Assembly (NCBI RefSeq): GCF_013393385.1
Contig: NZ_AP023239.1
Location: forward strand, 1,178,001-1,242,000
DNA from: Paenibacillus sp. URB8-2
GTDB taxonomy: Bacteria > Bacillota > Bacilli > Paenibacillales > Paenibacillaceae
Length of the DNA stretch: 64,000 nucleotides
Reading direction: 5' to 3'
Below are positions 47,887 through 51,931 of this stretch, one piece after another. The notes under the pieces were generated by a model. The model had not been told where the DNA came from, did no database searches, and worked only from the letters and a program-made list of their open reading frames with translations. Both the position numbers and the translations under genes were made by a program. Numbering within the stretch: the stretch's first letter is position 1; every line of letters begins with the position of its first letter.

Positions 47887-48978
47887 ATGAAAAAAGCTAT
47901 GGTTTCCCTGCTCTTGTTTCTTTTAGTTTGTTCCACGCTCGGTTTGTGGGGGGCAGAACCTCAGCAGGCCTATGCGGGTGTAAATAATAAATTGATTAAG
48001 CTGGTGAATACGGACAAAGCAAGTTACAGCCCGGGCAATGTGGTTACCGTTTATGTGGATATGTTAAACTCGACCGGAAGTGCCTTCTCGGGAGATGTCT
48101 CTTTGTATTTCCGTTATCTCGGCAATTTACACATCCAGTCCCAACGGTGAAGCAGGCAAGATTTGGACGATCTCGAAAGCAAAAGACGGCTACGATATCG
48201 TTCACCTAATTAACTTGAAGCAAAACACCTCGACAAGGTGGCGTGATGATAATGCCACCTATGTTGATCCGGGTGTGCTGAGCAATGTTTCCGTAAAAAT
48301 TTATTATGAAGGTTCCTTGGCTTCAACGCCAAAAGTTTGGTGGGCTACACCCGACTCCATCGGTACGGACCCGGCTAACTTCCAGTACGGAAAGGCTAAT
48401 CTTCTGACACAAGGCAGCAACTGGACAACGGGAAGCGATGCTAACGGCAACTTCATTACATTGACCGTACCGCAGCTTAACTATTGGGATATGATCTGGA
48501 TTGAGAAGGATGCGGATGAAACCGTCGGCTCGCAAGTAATGCTGCAGGACTTTGAATCTACAGGTACGCTCCCGTCAAATTGGACCCCGATTACGACATC
48601 GGACGCTCCGGCTCCGCTGGGCGGGTCCTGGTCCCTTACCCAGCCGGCCGGATCGACCAAAGAACTGACAGTAGGCTCAGGCGGAGGAATCATCAAGTAC
48701 GACAAAGGCAGCTGGAGCTGAAAAACGGCACCACATGGGATCTGTATAAGTATAGCGGCACTTCATGGACGCTGCTTGGTTCCGGGGCATTTTCTTATTC
48801 GGCAGGGTATCATTACTTGAAATTAAGCTGTGTAGGCAACAAACTGACCGTGGAAGTTGATCTGGCCAACAAAGGATCGTATTGGGACCTGAATGATCCG
48901 TTCCTGGATGGAACCGTTGGGGCACGCAGCGAAGTAGGCAATCATCGCTTCGATAATCTGAAAGTCACAGCTTTGTAA
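47887..48978 (+). pseudogene. GH66 dextranase/cycloisomaltooligosaccharide glucanotransferase remnant
   Basis: Three frame-shifted pieces make one broken secreted enzyme. Piece 1 (from 47887): signal peptide ending QQAYA, then KLIKLVNTDKASYSPGNVVT, the N-terminal beta domain of GH66. A frameshift near 48115-48140 leads to AIYTSSP, and the sequence jumps straight to DGYDIVHLINLKQNTSTRWR and YWDMIWIEKDAD, the C-terminal beta domain, so the whole catalytic barrel (several hundred residues) is gone. A following laminin-G-like domain (LQDFESTGTLPSNW) is broken again near 48715 and resumes as NGTTWDLYKYSGTSWTLLGS to 48978. The site AGGAAAGAAGAG precedes the start. Family call from remembered motifs. 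Confidence 0.75.
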
Positions 48979-49049: not shown

Positions 49050-49211
49050 CGTTCAGAAACTTCAGACAAAAATATAGTCTCAATTAGAGATCAACACTGT
49101 CAAAATTCGACAAAACATCTGTTCTATCGATGATAAAATAAGGTTGCGGTTCAGTTATGGTTTCGCTTTCCAGGCCCAATTTACGAAGGCGGTGTTGGGA
49201 GATTGCATGAT

Positions 49212-49913
49212 TTGATTTTTATAATATTGGGCATATTTGACGCTTTCGCTATGTTAACAATAATACTCAAACTGTATATGCTTCCGGTGCGGGAGTATTT
49301 TGTTAGAATACTTCTGTTCGCTTCATTTATTGCTCTATTCTCGTACTTGATGCGAATTGCTATAGGAGTACCGGAGTGGGATTTGCCCTTGCAATATTTG
49401 CTCATCATTCTTTTTTTGAGATTGGGTTTGAAAATTAAAGTACATCTGGCATCTTTTATAGCCGGAGCGGGAATTTGCGGATATGCCCTGATTCAAGTGG
49501 CCTTGTATTATTTTTATGCCTGGACCAACCTGATGAATGTTGGCGTGTTAAAAGAAAATAGCGGATTCTATATCAGTCTGCTTCAAGTTTCGACCATTGT
49601 TGCAGCTTTTGTTTTATCCTGGGCGCTGACCAGATTTAATCTCGGATTCTCTTTTATCATTGTTCCTCCGCATGACTTTCTGGTGAAGGAGAACTACTTC
49701 ACTAACCGAAATTTAATTCTTGTTATCGGCAGTTTGGCTTCGTTGGCAACAGTCTCCGTAACGATCCTGTTTCTATACAACGCAAATCCGTTGGGGTTAC
49801 TATTGATAGCGGCTGTGGCTTTTGGATTATCTTTTTATTTCTCGGGTTGGAGTGATCGGGATGATATTAGAAGAGCTCTCGAAGCGTATCGCAATAAAGG
49901 TAAAAAAGTATGA
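49212..49913 (+). CDS. Multi-span membrane protein of the Agr-like locus (possible peptide receptor or LytTR antagonist)
   Basis: A protein of about 233 residues with six or seven predicted spans covering almost its whole length and a short basic C-terminal tail (DDIRRALEAYRNKGKKV). The topology resembles the sensor half of AgrC-type kinases, but the chain ends without any histidine kinase or ATPase domain. TTG 49212 lies ten bases after GGGAG; TTG 49203 is too close. Its 3' end overlaps agrB by 53 bases in another frame, a strong sign of co-translation. By analogy with streptococcal LytTR systems it could hold LytTR proteins at the membrane, or it could be a peptide receptor. I do not recognise the family. 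Confidence 0.7.
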   Translation: MIFIILGIFDAFAMLTIILKLYMLPVREYFVRILLFASFIALFSYLMRIAIGVPEWDLPLQYLLIILFLRLGLKIKVHLASFIAGAGICGYALIQVALYYFYAWTNLMNVGVLKENSGFYISLLQVSTIVAAFVLSWALTRFNLGFSFIIVPPHDFLVKENYFTNRNLILVIGSLASLATVSVTILFLYNANPLGLLLIAAVAFGLSFYFSGWSDRDDIRRALEAYRNKGKKV

Positions 49914-50391
49914 CCCCGAAGGACCGGGTTCACTGGAAGTATTAAGCTATGGTATCGGATTAAAGCTGAATCTGTTCACAGGGATACTTCTTACGGTTCT
50001 GTTCGGCTTATTATTTAGTAGCGTGCTTCACTCACTGTTGGCTCTAGTTTCTTTTATGATCCTGCGGAAATTTTCCGGGGGCTACCATTTGCCTATTACT
50101 ATCTGCTCGTTCGCTACCGGGCTTACGGCTTCCTTGGTACCGTTGGTCCGTCTTGATCAAGAAGGAACGATTCTGTTAACGGCACTGTCGCTGCTTATTG
50201 CGCTTTTTTTTGCGCCTAACAACTATGAAGAGTTATACAATGTGGAGTTTGATTCCTGGTCCAAGGGGATTTCAGTTTTAATTATCTTGTCAAATCTTTA
50301 TTTTCAATCGACGATTGTGGCGGTGGCATTCCTAATTCAATCCCTGCTGCTGCTGCCGGTATACCCCAGGAAAGGAGGTGTTAACCTATGA
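49861..50391 (+). CDS. agrB: AgrB-like autoinducer-processing protease
   Basis: A 176-residue AgrB-family membrane endopeptidase that cuts the AgrD precursor and closes the ring. The catalytic pair is visible in RKFSGGYHLPITICSFATGL: His76 and Cys82, six residues apart (seven in S. aureus AgrB, from memory). Four or five spans follow. The ATG at 49861 lies inside the upstream gene after TTGGAGTG. The stop overlaps agrD by four bases. Confidence 0.85.
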   Translation: MILEELSKRIAIKVKKYDPEGPGSLEVLSYGIGLKLNLFTGILLTVLFGLLFSSVLHSLLALVSFMILRKFSGGYHLPITICSFATGLTASLVPLVRLDQEGTILLTALSLLIALFFAPNNYEELYNVEFDSWSKGISVLIILSNLYFQSTIVAVAFLIQSLLLLPVYPRKGGVNL

Positions 50392-50513
50392 AGAAAGCAA
50401 TGGCGCGTTATTTTGCCGAAAGAATTGTGAAGTCAGCCGTGAAGTCTTCCCGAAGCCGGAAGTCGATTGCTGGTTCTCTGCCAGTTCCCCAAGAATTAAA
50501 AAAGGTAAAGTAG
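50388..50513 (+). CDS. agrD: AgrD-like cyclic autoinducer precursor without cysteine
   Basis: A 41-residue peptide with a perfect site (AAAGGAGGTG, 50371-50380). It has an amphipathic basic N-terminus (MKKAMARYFAERIVKSAVKS), a Ser-rich core (SRSRKSIAGSL) and the conserved AgrD-type tail PVPQELKK (compare EVPKEL of S. aureus AgrD). There is no Cys, so a mature ring would have to be a lactone through Ser23 or Ser26. Position, overlap with agrB and tail motif make the call firm despite the short length. Confidence 0.8.
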   Translation: MKKAMARYFAERIVKSAVKSSRSRKSIAGSLPVPQELKKVK

Positions 50514-50517
50514 TTCC

Positions 50518-51255
50518 ATGGAAGAAGGACAGCGTAACATCGTCGGCGTTCAAGTCTCTGATTCGGCAAACGGGACTTTGAAAAAGGAGTTTCGAGAGAA
50601 CGAGATTATGAGCATCGAAATGTGGAAGCCGAAAAAAAATTACAGTGTTCCTATTTTCTACACCAGAAGCGGCAACTTTACCGTGTTGACCACTCTGGAG
50701 GAATGCGGCTGCGTTTTTTCGGCTTTCGCCTCTTTGGACACCTGGAATCTTGTGAATTTGAAAAAAGGGGAGCGCCTGGAGACCGGAAGCTACGGGGGAA
50801 GGCTCTATTTTCAGAACTCATCCATCTATACCGGAGTGAATCTCAAGAGCATGGGGATGTGGGATGACCTCGTTGCCAGGTCGAAAGAGGCGAAGGAAGA
50901 TGACAGGGATATTCTTGTAAACCGGATCGAATGTTCCGGCAGGCTGGACCAAGGACAATTCATCAAGGCAAGCGAGGTATTCTATATTGACACTTGGGAG
51001 CCTAAACGAAATTATCATGTTCCCCGGTTCTACACGGAAGAAGGCTGCTTTACGGCCGGATTGACCTTTCAGAGCTGCAAAGAAGCCTTCCCCCACTTTT
51101 TCCCCGCGTATAACGGAAGCCTGGTCAACATGGACTGGATCGACCGTATCGAAGAAAAGATCTATGGAGACACCCTTCTATTTAAAGATTCCGAACATAA
51201 GACAGGCATCGCCCGCAATAAAGTGAAGTATCTTAAATCTATTCTTAACCAATAA
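50518..51255 (+). CDS. Tandem LytTR-domain protein
   Basis: A 245-residue soluble protein made of two LytTR-like DNA-binding domains (about residues 28-112 and 152-240) and no receiver domain. The halves align: MWKPKKNYSVPIFYT with TWEPKRNYHVPRFYT, then WNLVNL with GSLVNM, and GGRLYFQN with GDTLLFKD. This fits the 10-stranded LytTR fold in which the F-x-x-x-H-x-S-x-L-V-N segment is conserved. It follows agrD by four bases. ATG 50518 has a modest site (AAGGTAAAG); ATG 50608 is an alternative. One polypeptide could bind both half-sites of a direct repeat. Regulatory role inferred. Confidence 0.7.
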   Translation: MEEGQRNIVGVQVSDSANGTLKKEFRENEIMSIEMWKPKKNYSVPIFYTRSGNFTVLTTLEECGCVFSAFASLDTWNLVNLKKGERLETGSYGGRLYFQNSSIYTGVNLKSMGMWDDLVARSKEAKEDDRDILVNRIECSGRLDQGQFIKASEVFYIDTWEPKRNYHVPRFYTEEGCFTAGLTFQSCKEAFPHFFPAYNGSLVNMDWIDRIEEKIYGDTLLFKDSEHKTGIARNKVKYLKSILNQ

Positions 51256-51284
51256 CCCTCTACTCCTTGCGAGAGAGGGTTATT
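51251..51284 (+). terminator. Hairpin after the tandem LytTR gene
   Basis: AATAACCCTCT (51251-51261) pairs perfectly with AGAGGGTTATT (51274-51284). It has no long T-tract, so it may terminate weakly. Confidence 0.55.
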
Positions 51285-51364
51285 GTCATATTGTGGATAA
51301 AAAGTCAAGAAAAATCTATACTAGGAAAGCCCATAATCTTCCGATTTTTTTCGACAAATTATTT

Positions 51365-51383
51365 GTTTATCATAATGATAAAC
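51365..51383. promoter_or_regulatory. 19-bp perfect palindrome upstream of the single LytTR gene
   Basis: GTTTATCAT-A-ATGATAAAC is perfectly symmetrical and lies 168 bases before the LytTR start. It may be an operator; which protein binds is unknown. LytTR proteins usually bind direct repeats, so another regulator is possible. Confidence 0.4.
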
Positions 51384-51550
51384 TAATCATAAAGGCTTTT
51401 CATTCAAGCGGCAGAATGATATTATTCGTGGGCTATAACGAGATTTTCGAGCCAGATTACCTGGGACATCCCTCGGAGATTGAGCCAATGTTGATACAAG
51501 GTATAATCCCATGAAAATTTTAAGAATAGATAAAAAAGGTGAGGGATTGG

Positions 51551-51931
51551 ATGCTTAACCTGACAGTAACCGAGGACGAACAAGGGGCAGGCATGCAGCA
51601 ATTGCCGGTCGATGAGATTTTGTTCCTGCAATCGAATGCTAACGATTTTATAGATGTCCACACCAAATACAAACAGTATTTCGTCGTGGGATCTCTAAAA
51701 TTTTGGGAGAGCGCATTTGAACAAACGGACCTGAATTTTTTGCGTTTGGATCGCGGCGTTCTGACCAATATGGATAAGATTAGATGCATCAATACCTCCT
51801 TGAAGGTTGCTTACTTCGATTACCCGCTGAAAAGGGATACCAAGTACTGTACGATTTCCTACGGAAGGTATATAACGATTCTCAATAAACTCCCGCCGGA
51901 ACTGCCGAAAATCGAGACGACATTGTTATGA
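51551..51931 (+). CDS. Single-domain LytTR transcriptional regulator
   Basis: A 126-residue protein consisting almost only of a LytTR DNA-binding domain: LPVDEILFLQSNANDFIDVH (strand-rich start), FWESAFEQTDLNFLRLDRGV and TNMDKIRCINTSLKVAYFDY, where LytTR proteins have F-x-R-x-x-R-x-x-x-V-N. The receiver domain normally found in AgrA is absent. ATG 51551 has AGGTGAGGG just upstream; an earlier GTG at 51539 overlaps that site. It is likely the output regulator of the locus or of nearby genes. Confidence 0.75.
   Translation: MLNLTVTEDEQGAGMQQLPVDEILFLQSNANDFIDVHTKYKQYFVVGSLKFWESAFEQTDLNFLRLDRGVLTNMDKIRCINTSLKVAYFDYPLKRDTKYCTISYGRYITILNKLPPELPKIETTLL

Follow-up and report, generated by a model that had tools for sequence, protein, structure and literature searches.

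The window examined here is a stretch of 64,000 nucleotides, positions 1178001–1242000 of the 5.58-Mb, single-contig genome of a soil Paenibacillus. On its plus strand, at 49203–51255, open reading frame (ORF) calls delineate a four-gene cassette that encodes a transmembrane protein (TM), the peptide protease AgrB, an AgrD-like peptide precursor, and a tandem LytTR protein. The combination of AgrB, an AgrD tail, and an AgrC-like sensor identifies the cassette as a variant of agr. We put the chances slightly above even that it represents a phosphorylation-free form of this signalling system, in which a kinase-less receptor controls a receiver-less LytTR protein.

In such a circuit, AgrB would cut the AgrD-like precursor and a small, probably cyclic peptide would be released. 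TM, a stand-alone relative of AgrC-like sensor domains, would bind the peptide and alter the activity of the receiver-less LytTR protein, through release from the membrane or activation on contact, with no kinase being driven; the response could be either activation or relief of inhibition. As far as sequence can speak directly, it supports the anatomy of the cassette, its recurrence, the absence of kinase and receiver, the relationship of TM, and the active-site residues of AgrB, where His76 and Cys82 of the motif GGYHLPITIC are invariant among seven aligned sequences. A kinase-free circuit had been proposed in a preliminary description of this stretch. It has gained support because the TM-AgrB-AgrD-LytTR order recurs at most of 134 AgrB loci, whereas contact between TM and LytTR is among the steps we infer, together with peptide release, the role of TM as receptor, the dimer argument given below, and the sign of the response. 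If the proposal is correct, a large branch of agr-type quorum sensing operates without a two-component phosphorelay, and the receiver-less LytTR regulators gain a defined class of ligand.

Anatomy and recurrence of the cassette

As first described, genes for a membrane protein, AgrB, a 41-residue AgrD, a tandem LytTR protein, and a single LytTR protein lie on one strand, with no kinase and no receiver; a Pfam search found no HATPase or receiver match in any of the five proteins. The reported overlaps are also present, 53 bases between TM and AgrB and 4 bases between AgrB and AgrD. The tandem LytTR gene does not overlap AgrD but follows it after 4 bases. The single LytTR gene starts 283 bases behind the tandem gene and is probably a separate transcription unit, given this gap and a putative hairpin within it (about 51257–51283, by eye), which a terminator scan did not call. 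For TM, the start at TTG 49212 has, by eye, a better-spaced Shine-Dalgarno sequence than that at TTG 49203.

Both LytTR proteins of the locus consist of LytTR alone, with none of the receiver-plus-LytTR architecture of AgrA. Only the C-terminal half of the tandem protein exceeds the Pfam cut-off (2.2e-5); its N-terminal half is 32% identical to the C-terminal half. The best relative of the tandem profile in the PDB is ComE (4.4e-5), over the LytTR end of that protein. AgrA-type regulators dimerise on paired sites, a step that phosphorylation promotes. The tandem protein of the window could be a ready-made dimer that replaces the phosphorylation-driven dimerisation of an AgrA-type receiver. Such a dimer would be a refinement rather than a requirement, since most cassettes, judged by length, encode single LytTR proteins. 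No excess of LytTR-type repeats was seen at offsets of 20–23 in 115 upstream regions, for which the start sites are approximate.

The genome contains two more AgrB genes, each in the TM-AgrB-AgrD-LytTR order (loci B and C), and a TM profile search of it returned three matches, each a stand-alone frame. The LytTR protein of locus C scores 21.9 bits, slightly under the Pfam threshold of 22.6. At 21 named loci, near relatives of the window that were picked for a TM relative, AgrB lies directly behind TM in every case. These paralogues and the 21 named loci make it improbable that the order arose by chance. A LytTR gene was found directly behind by phmmer in 15 of the 21, as a tandem in one ORF in nine, as a single domain in five, and in one (L024), close to where the contig stops, as a tandem split over two ORFs; in the remaining six, phmmer found no LytTR protein directly behind. 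Of the five-gene order proposed for a search of Paenibacillaceae genomes, the first four genes are found at most AgrB loci examined. A single LytTR gene placed as in the window accompanies two of the 21 named loci, the nearest relatives L019 and L020.

AgrB is present in 83 of 118 sampled Paenibacillaceae genomes. Of 144 listed matches, 134 were examined, at 132 stretches, and the 10 omitted are among the weakest. TM lies directly upstream of 117 of these 134 AgrB genes and LytTR no more than 450 bp downstream of 100; both are present at 99 and neither at 16. Eight of the 16 (L040–L047) have a Cys-type AgrD followed by a long ORF, and their AgrBs fall on one side of a branch with a Shimodaira–Hasegawa-like approximate likelihood ratio test (SH-aLRT) value of 100. 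ORFs with kinase motifs occur at seven of the 132 stretches, all within this group; the eighth member, L042, is truncated at the motif because its stretch stops there. In Pfam, HATPase_c_5 is over the cut-off in L046 (4.7e-11), below it in L043 (0.003), and without a match in L042, the last two ORFs being cut by the stretch. The Paenibacillaceae therefore have loci of two kinds, ordinary agr and the kinase-free cassette. The remaining eight of the 16 include a rearranged locus (L080), one that stops at a contig end (L150), and several in which AgrB stands alone. The order in L080 is AgrB, TM-like protein, LytTR. Near the AgrB-like genes of L124, L126, L145, L156, and L162, no TM, AgrD, or LytTR gene was seen.

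Ancestry of the membrane protein and the route of the signal

The AlphaFold2 model of TM (predicted local distance difference test score 84.4, predicted template modelling score 0.79) contains seven long helices, at residues 2–24, 33–54, 57–74, 80–107, 122–144, 168–192, and 196–235. Homologues in P. rhizophilus and P. sabinae are 84% and 81% identical, which suggests that the genome is close to these two species. Lengths range from 211 to 247 residues among 39 homologues including TM itself, in a search that admits proteins of about 130–413 residues, and TM is one ORF of 217–253 residues at 20 of the 21 named loci, being split in L037. The uniform length and the single ORF rule out an AgrC truncated by a frameshift, a possibility that the preliminary description had raised against its own reading. 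One homologue (P0036) comes from a 5.9-kb contig labelled Mycobacterium tuberculosis and is probably contamination.

Of 299 Bacilli genomes searched with the TM profile, 32 are matched. TM-AgrB-AgrD-LytTR cassettes also occur in two other families of Bacilli, with LytTR scores of 5.1e-12 (L182), 8.3e-7 (L186), and 21.2 bits (L179, slightly under the cut-off). In other families the profile also matches the N-terminus of proteins of 406–450 residues encoded directly upstream of AgrB-AgrD. Pseudokinase loci with a TM-type sensor in this position are L199–L204 and L207. As judged by eye from an alignment, all seven pseudokinases lack the kinase histidine, the N-box asparagine, and the G-box, which four comparison kinases keep. 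No HATPase family is matched by any of the seven. Behind AgrD, a receiver-plus-LytTR gene is recognised by Pfam at four of the seven loci; two of the others have none nearby, and one is without a call.

Profile comparisons place TM among these proteins. Against the pseudokinase N-terminal domains, hhalign gave 99.3% (E 1.3e-20, 187 columns). Two further proteins, L205 and L206, match the TM profile weakly (3.2e-6 and 2.3e-5), have clear HATPase domains (8.6e-17 and 7.9e-18), and are encoded directly upstream of AgrB; in the PDB, L205 comes closest to the kinase module of S. aureus AgrC (1.2e-10), followed by PhoQ (1e-9). Their N-terminal domains align with TM at 93.2% (E 2.9e-7) and with the pseudokinase N-terminal domains at 86.2% (E 4.9e-6). 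Negative controls gave 0.3% for TM against AgrB and 0.25% for AgrB against the pseudokinase domains. TM is thus homologous to the N-terminal domains of AgrC-like proteins that adjoin AgrB. To the sensors of the ordinary agr kinases, represented by seven loci of the group of eight (L040–L044, L046, and L047), neither TM (hhalign, 1.4%) nor the L205/L206 sensors (0.8%) show a relation detectable by sequence.

Because it is related to the N-terminal domains of the pseudokinases and of L205/L206, and not detectably to the ordinary agr sensor, TM is best interpreted as a sensor domain that belongs to a second AgrC-like lineage and appears without its kinase, rather than as a broken ordinary AgrC. 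The series of intact kinase, pseudokinase, and no kinase suggests, on sequence grounds, a stepwise loss, and would, if real, record how a peptide receptor drops its kinase. Losses of kinase and receiver would not be strictly coupled, since L185 has TM only, paired with a receiver-plus-LytTR regulator.

The kinship of TM also bears on the strongest competing explanation, an unlikely one, that TM, rather than being the receptor, is a maturation or export partner of AgrB and AgrD, for example in N-terminal processing, and that LytTR is controlled otherwise. The overlap of the TM and AgrB genes in the window, with translational coupling probable, would suit such a partner. So would a PHxF/L motif in TM that tracks glycine at position +1 of AgrD, a residue lost on cleavage: both are found in 13 cases, glycine only in 3, the motif only in none, and neither in 93. 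This link may, however, reflect mere clade membership, and the L040–L047 agr loci have no TM. The relationship of TM to the N-terminal domains of AgrB-adjoining kinases and pseudokinases points instead to sensing.

Rather improbable is a circuit that retains phosphorylation, with TM as the peptide sensor and an unlinked or soluble histidine kinase relaying its signal. The pseudokinase relatives do keep a degenerate kinase-like tail, the four with receiver-plus-LytTR neighbours could be read in this way, and in L196 and L204 the pseudokinase gene is immediately preceded by a gene for a soluble kinase-like protein of about 270 residues (by eye). Yet the LytTR proteins of the window have no receiver to take a phosphate, and no kinase-motif ORF was seen near the examined Paenibacillaceae TM cassettes.

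Decay of the locus to a non-functional agr is very improbable. A fragmented GH66 neighbour and a peptide without cysteine might suggest it, but the five ORFs are open, relatives and two paralogous cassettes show the same order, AgrB retains its His/Cys motif at 31 of 31 loci with lysine-type peptides (see below), and the cassette is also found on three phages and one plasmid. Recurrence in relatives and on some phages makes the cassette look like a real variant of agr-type signalling and not a broken copy. Equally remote is the idea that this peptide is detected by an ordinary AgrC/AgrA pair encoded at another site: the genome does encode a LytS/LytT-like pair with a receiver-plus-LytTR protein (L013), but the cassette carries LytTR proteins of its own, the four PF14501 matches were read as other kinases (PF02518 was not searched), and the L205/L206 sensor profile, run against the genome without a positive control, matched nothing.

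The orphan AgrC/AgrA pair named at the outset as contrary evidence accordingly did not appear: the sole receiver-plus-LytTR gene noticed adjoins a LytS-like kinase. Further LytTR genes of the genome, besides this pair, encode a protein combining an ABC-like part with LytTR and an orphan of 112 residues. In the former (L014:1574–2551), whose gene adjoins ABC transporter genes, the ABC-like region is weak and the LytTR domain is C-terminal.

A lysine beside a ring position without cysteine or serine

The AgrD precursors of S. aureus and Listeria are cleaved five residues ahead of the proline in the PxEL tail. Peptides at 121 of the 134 loci were sorted by this rule, with no bonus for ring residues. 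Serine occupies position −5 in 52 and cysteine in 31, one (L096) has both Ser(−5) and Lys(−4), and 37 are left. Of these 37, which have neither Cys nor Ser at −5, 29 have Lys(−4). The other eight consist of six with Ser(−4), one with Cys(−6), a shift of one residue, and L155, mis-parsed and with Ser(−5) by eye; Arg(−4) occurs in none of the eight peptides having neither Lys(−4) nor Cys/Ser(−5). In the lysine types the other five core positions are variable, the commonest residue reaching at most 11 of 29.

The window peptide belongs to the lysine type, with Arg at −5, Lys at −4, and no Cys or Ser at the ring position. The absence of a ring-forming residue had been overlooked in the first reading and is a new observation here. 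Locus B likewise encodes a lysine type and locus C a serine type. The window peptide has no match to TIGR04223, the NCBIfam AgrD model, which the locus C peptide matches at 2.1e-6; over the cut-off are five of five Cys/Ser-type peptides, one of them from the ordinary agr group, and none of five lysine types. Lys(−4) is in register at 20 of the 21 named loci; L039 is off register, and L034 also has Ser(−5). Outside the Paenibacillaceae, L179 and L180 have Lys(−4), with FKASI and FKAGI preceding the cut. The peptides of phages Paisley, Abouo, and Emery and of plasmid pAP1, which are independent of the finding of the rule, have Lys(−4) and no Cys/Ser(−5) in four of four cases.

The thiolactone ring of the AgrD product is described as 16-membered (PMC4979651). 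A ring closed from the Lys(−4) side chain to the cut carbonyl would contain 7 + 9 = 16 atoms, 7 from the lysine and 9 from three residues, against 4 + 12 = 16 for Cys/Ser(−5). This equality in atom number makes a lactam attractive: AgrB would join the side-chain amine of Lys(−4) to the new C-terminus to give a macrolactam, and receptor geometry could therefore stay while the bond becomes an amide stable to hydrolysis. We offer only tentatively, and as a less than likely case, the wider proposal of an agr subclass in which both chemistries have been replaced, with phosphate-free signalling through a kinase-less receptor and a receiver-less LytTR protein, and a macrolactam signal. If such a lactam autoinducer exists, it would be a more stable natural relative of the staphylococcal autoinducing peptides. 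The lysine could instead serve in recognition or in N-terminal processing of a linear peptide. The exclusivity of lysine is weaker than the counts imply, because a single clade of all lysine types is not rejected and fits better. The lysine types may have one origin.

Relation to known systems and neighbouring features

With staphylococcal agr the cassette shares an AgrB protease with its His/Cys motif, an AgrD-like precursor with a PxEL tail, a polytopic sensor-like protein, and LytTR output. It differs in having no kinase or receiver, in placing the membrane gene first, and in a peptide without Cys or Ser at the ring position. Among the canonical components, only AgrB is found at the locus; a Cys/Ser-type AgrD, an AgrC kinase, and an AgrA with receiver and LytTR are not.

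The LytTR regulatory systems HdrRM and BrsRM, in which a receiver-less LytTR protein is encoded with a membrane protein and no phosphorelay is involved (PMC6193735), resemble the cassette in these respects. In S. mutans-type systems, however, the regulator gene lies upstream of the membrane protein gene, whereas Bacteroides 'LRS-like' operons have the regulator downstream and other membrane domains (PMC6193735). The TM-AgrB-AgrD-LytTR order of the window departs from the regulator-first order of S. mutans, AgrBD is not described in the part of that account drawn on here (PMC6193735), and direct repeats, expected in such systems about 21 bp apart upstream of the operon promoter, were undetected here. 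For reasons of order, peptide genes, and undetected repeats, the cassette is not classed with these systems. The streptococcal likeness suggested at first is thus functional, but gene order, the lack of detected repeats, and the kinship of TM to kinase and pseudokinase sensors set the two apart.

Phages Davies, Emery, and Abouo were reported in 2014 to encode AgrB, AgrD, and a kinase-less AgrC-like membrane protein (PMC3901668), and so share with the window a membrane protein of this kind adjoining AgrB and AgrD. The portion of that account considered here mentions neither a LytTR-type gene behind AgrD nor the lysine (PMC3901668); inspection of the sequences shows that the Emery and Abouo loci are cassettes of the window type. 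C. difficile agr1 likewise has AgrB and AgrD without AgrC or AgrA, but a TM or LytTR partner is not mentioned in the passages drawn on (PMC3901668). In the open-licence literature, preprints excluded, searches showed no description of the present cassette together with its LytTR gene or of a Lys-closed AgrD product.

Three of eight phage records (Paisley, Abouo, and Emery) and one of three plasmid records (pAP1 of P. polymyxa) were inspected, and all four carry the whole cassette (L209, L210, L211, and L212). AgrB matches were also seen in phages Harrison and Davies. A LytTR-type protein lies behind AgrD in all three cassette-bearing phages, over the Pfam cut-off in two and below it in Emery (19.1 against 22.6 bits); that of pAP1 is over the cut-off.

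Table. Coordinates and properties of the window cassette, the downstream LytTR gene, and the two paralogous loci (aa, amino acid residues)
Feature	Position	Strand	Remarks
TM protein, 236 aa	49203..49913	+	start TTG 49203 or TTG 49212; candidate kinase-less receptor
AgrB peptide protease, 176 aa	49861..50391	+	PF04647 1.5e-12
AgrD-like precursor, 41 aa, without Cys	50388..50513	+	predicted cut after Ala28, Lys25 at −4
Lys25 codon of AgrD-like peptide	50460..50462	+	
Tandem LytTR protein, 245 aa, without receiver	50518..51255	+	PF04397 2.2e-5, C-terminal half
Single LytTR protein, 130 aa (126 aa if ATG 51551)	51539..51931	+	PF04397 4.4e-8
Locus B (L010)			TM 219 aa, AgrB, 39-aa peptide, LytTR 109 aa
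Locus C (L011)		−	TM 215 aa, AgrB, 51-aa peptide, LytTR 133 aa

Upstream of the cassette, at 47887–48978, lies a GH66 gene in pieces. The word TTGTCGAA, which we take to be Spo0A-box-like, is found upstream of TM (49106–49113) and upstream of the single LytTR gene (51350–51357, minus strand). Boxes of this type number seven in the window against 2.8 expected, a count reached in 4 of 100 shuffles. In L019, related words stand at the matching position before TM and also precede the single LytTR gene; in L020, they are seen at that position before TM. The Spo0A-box-like words overlap −35-like TCGACA words.

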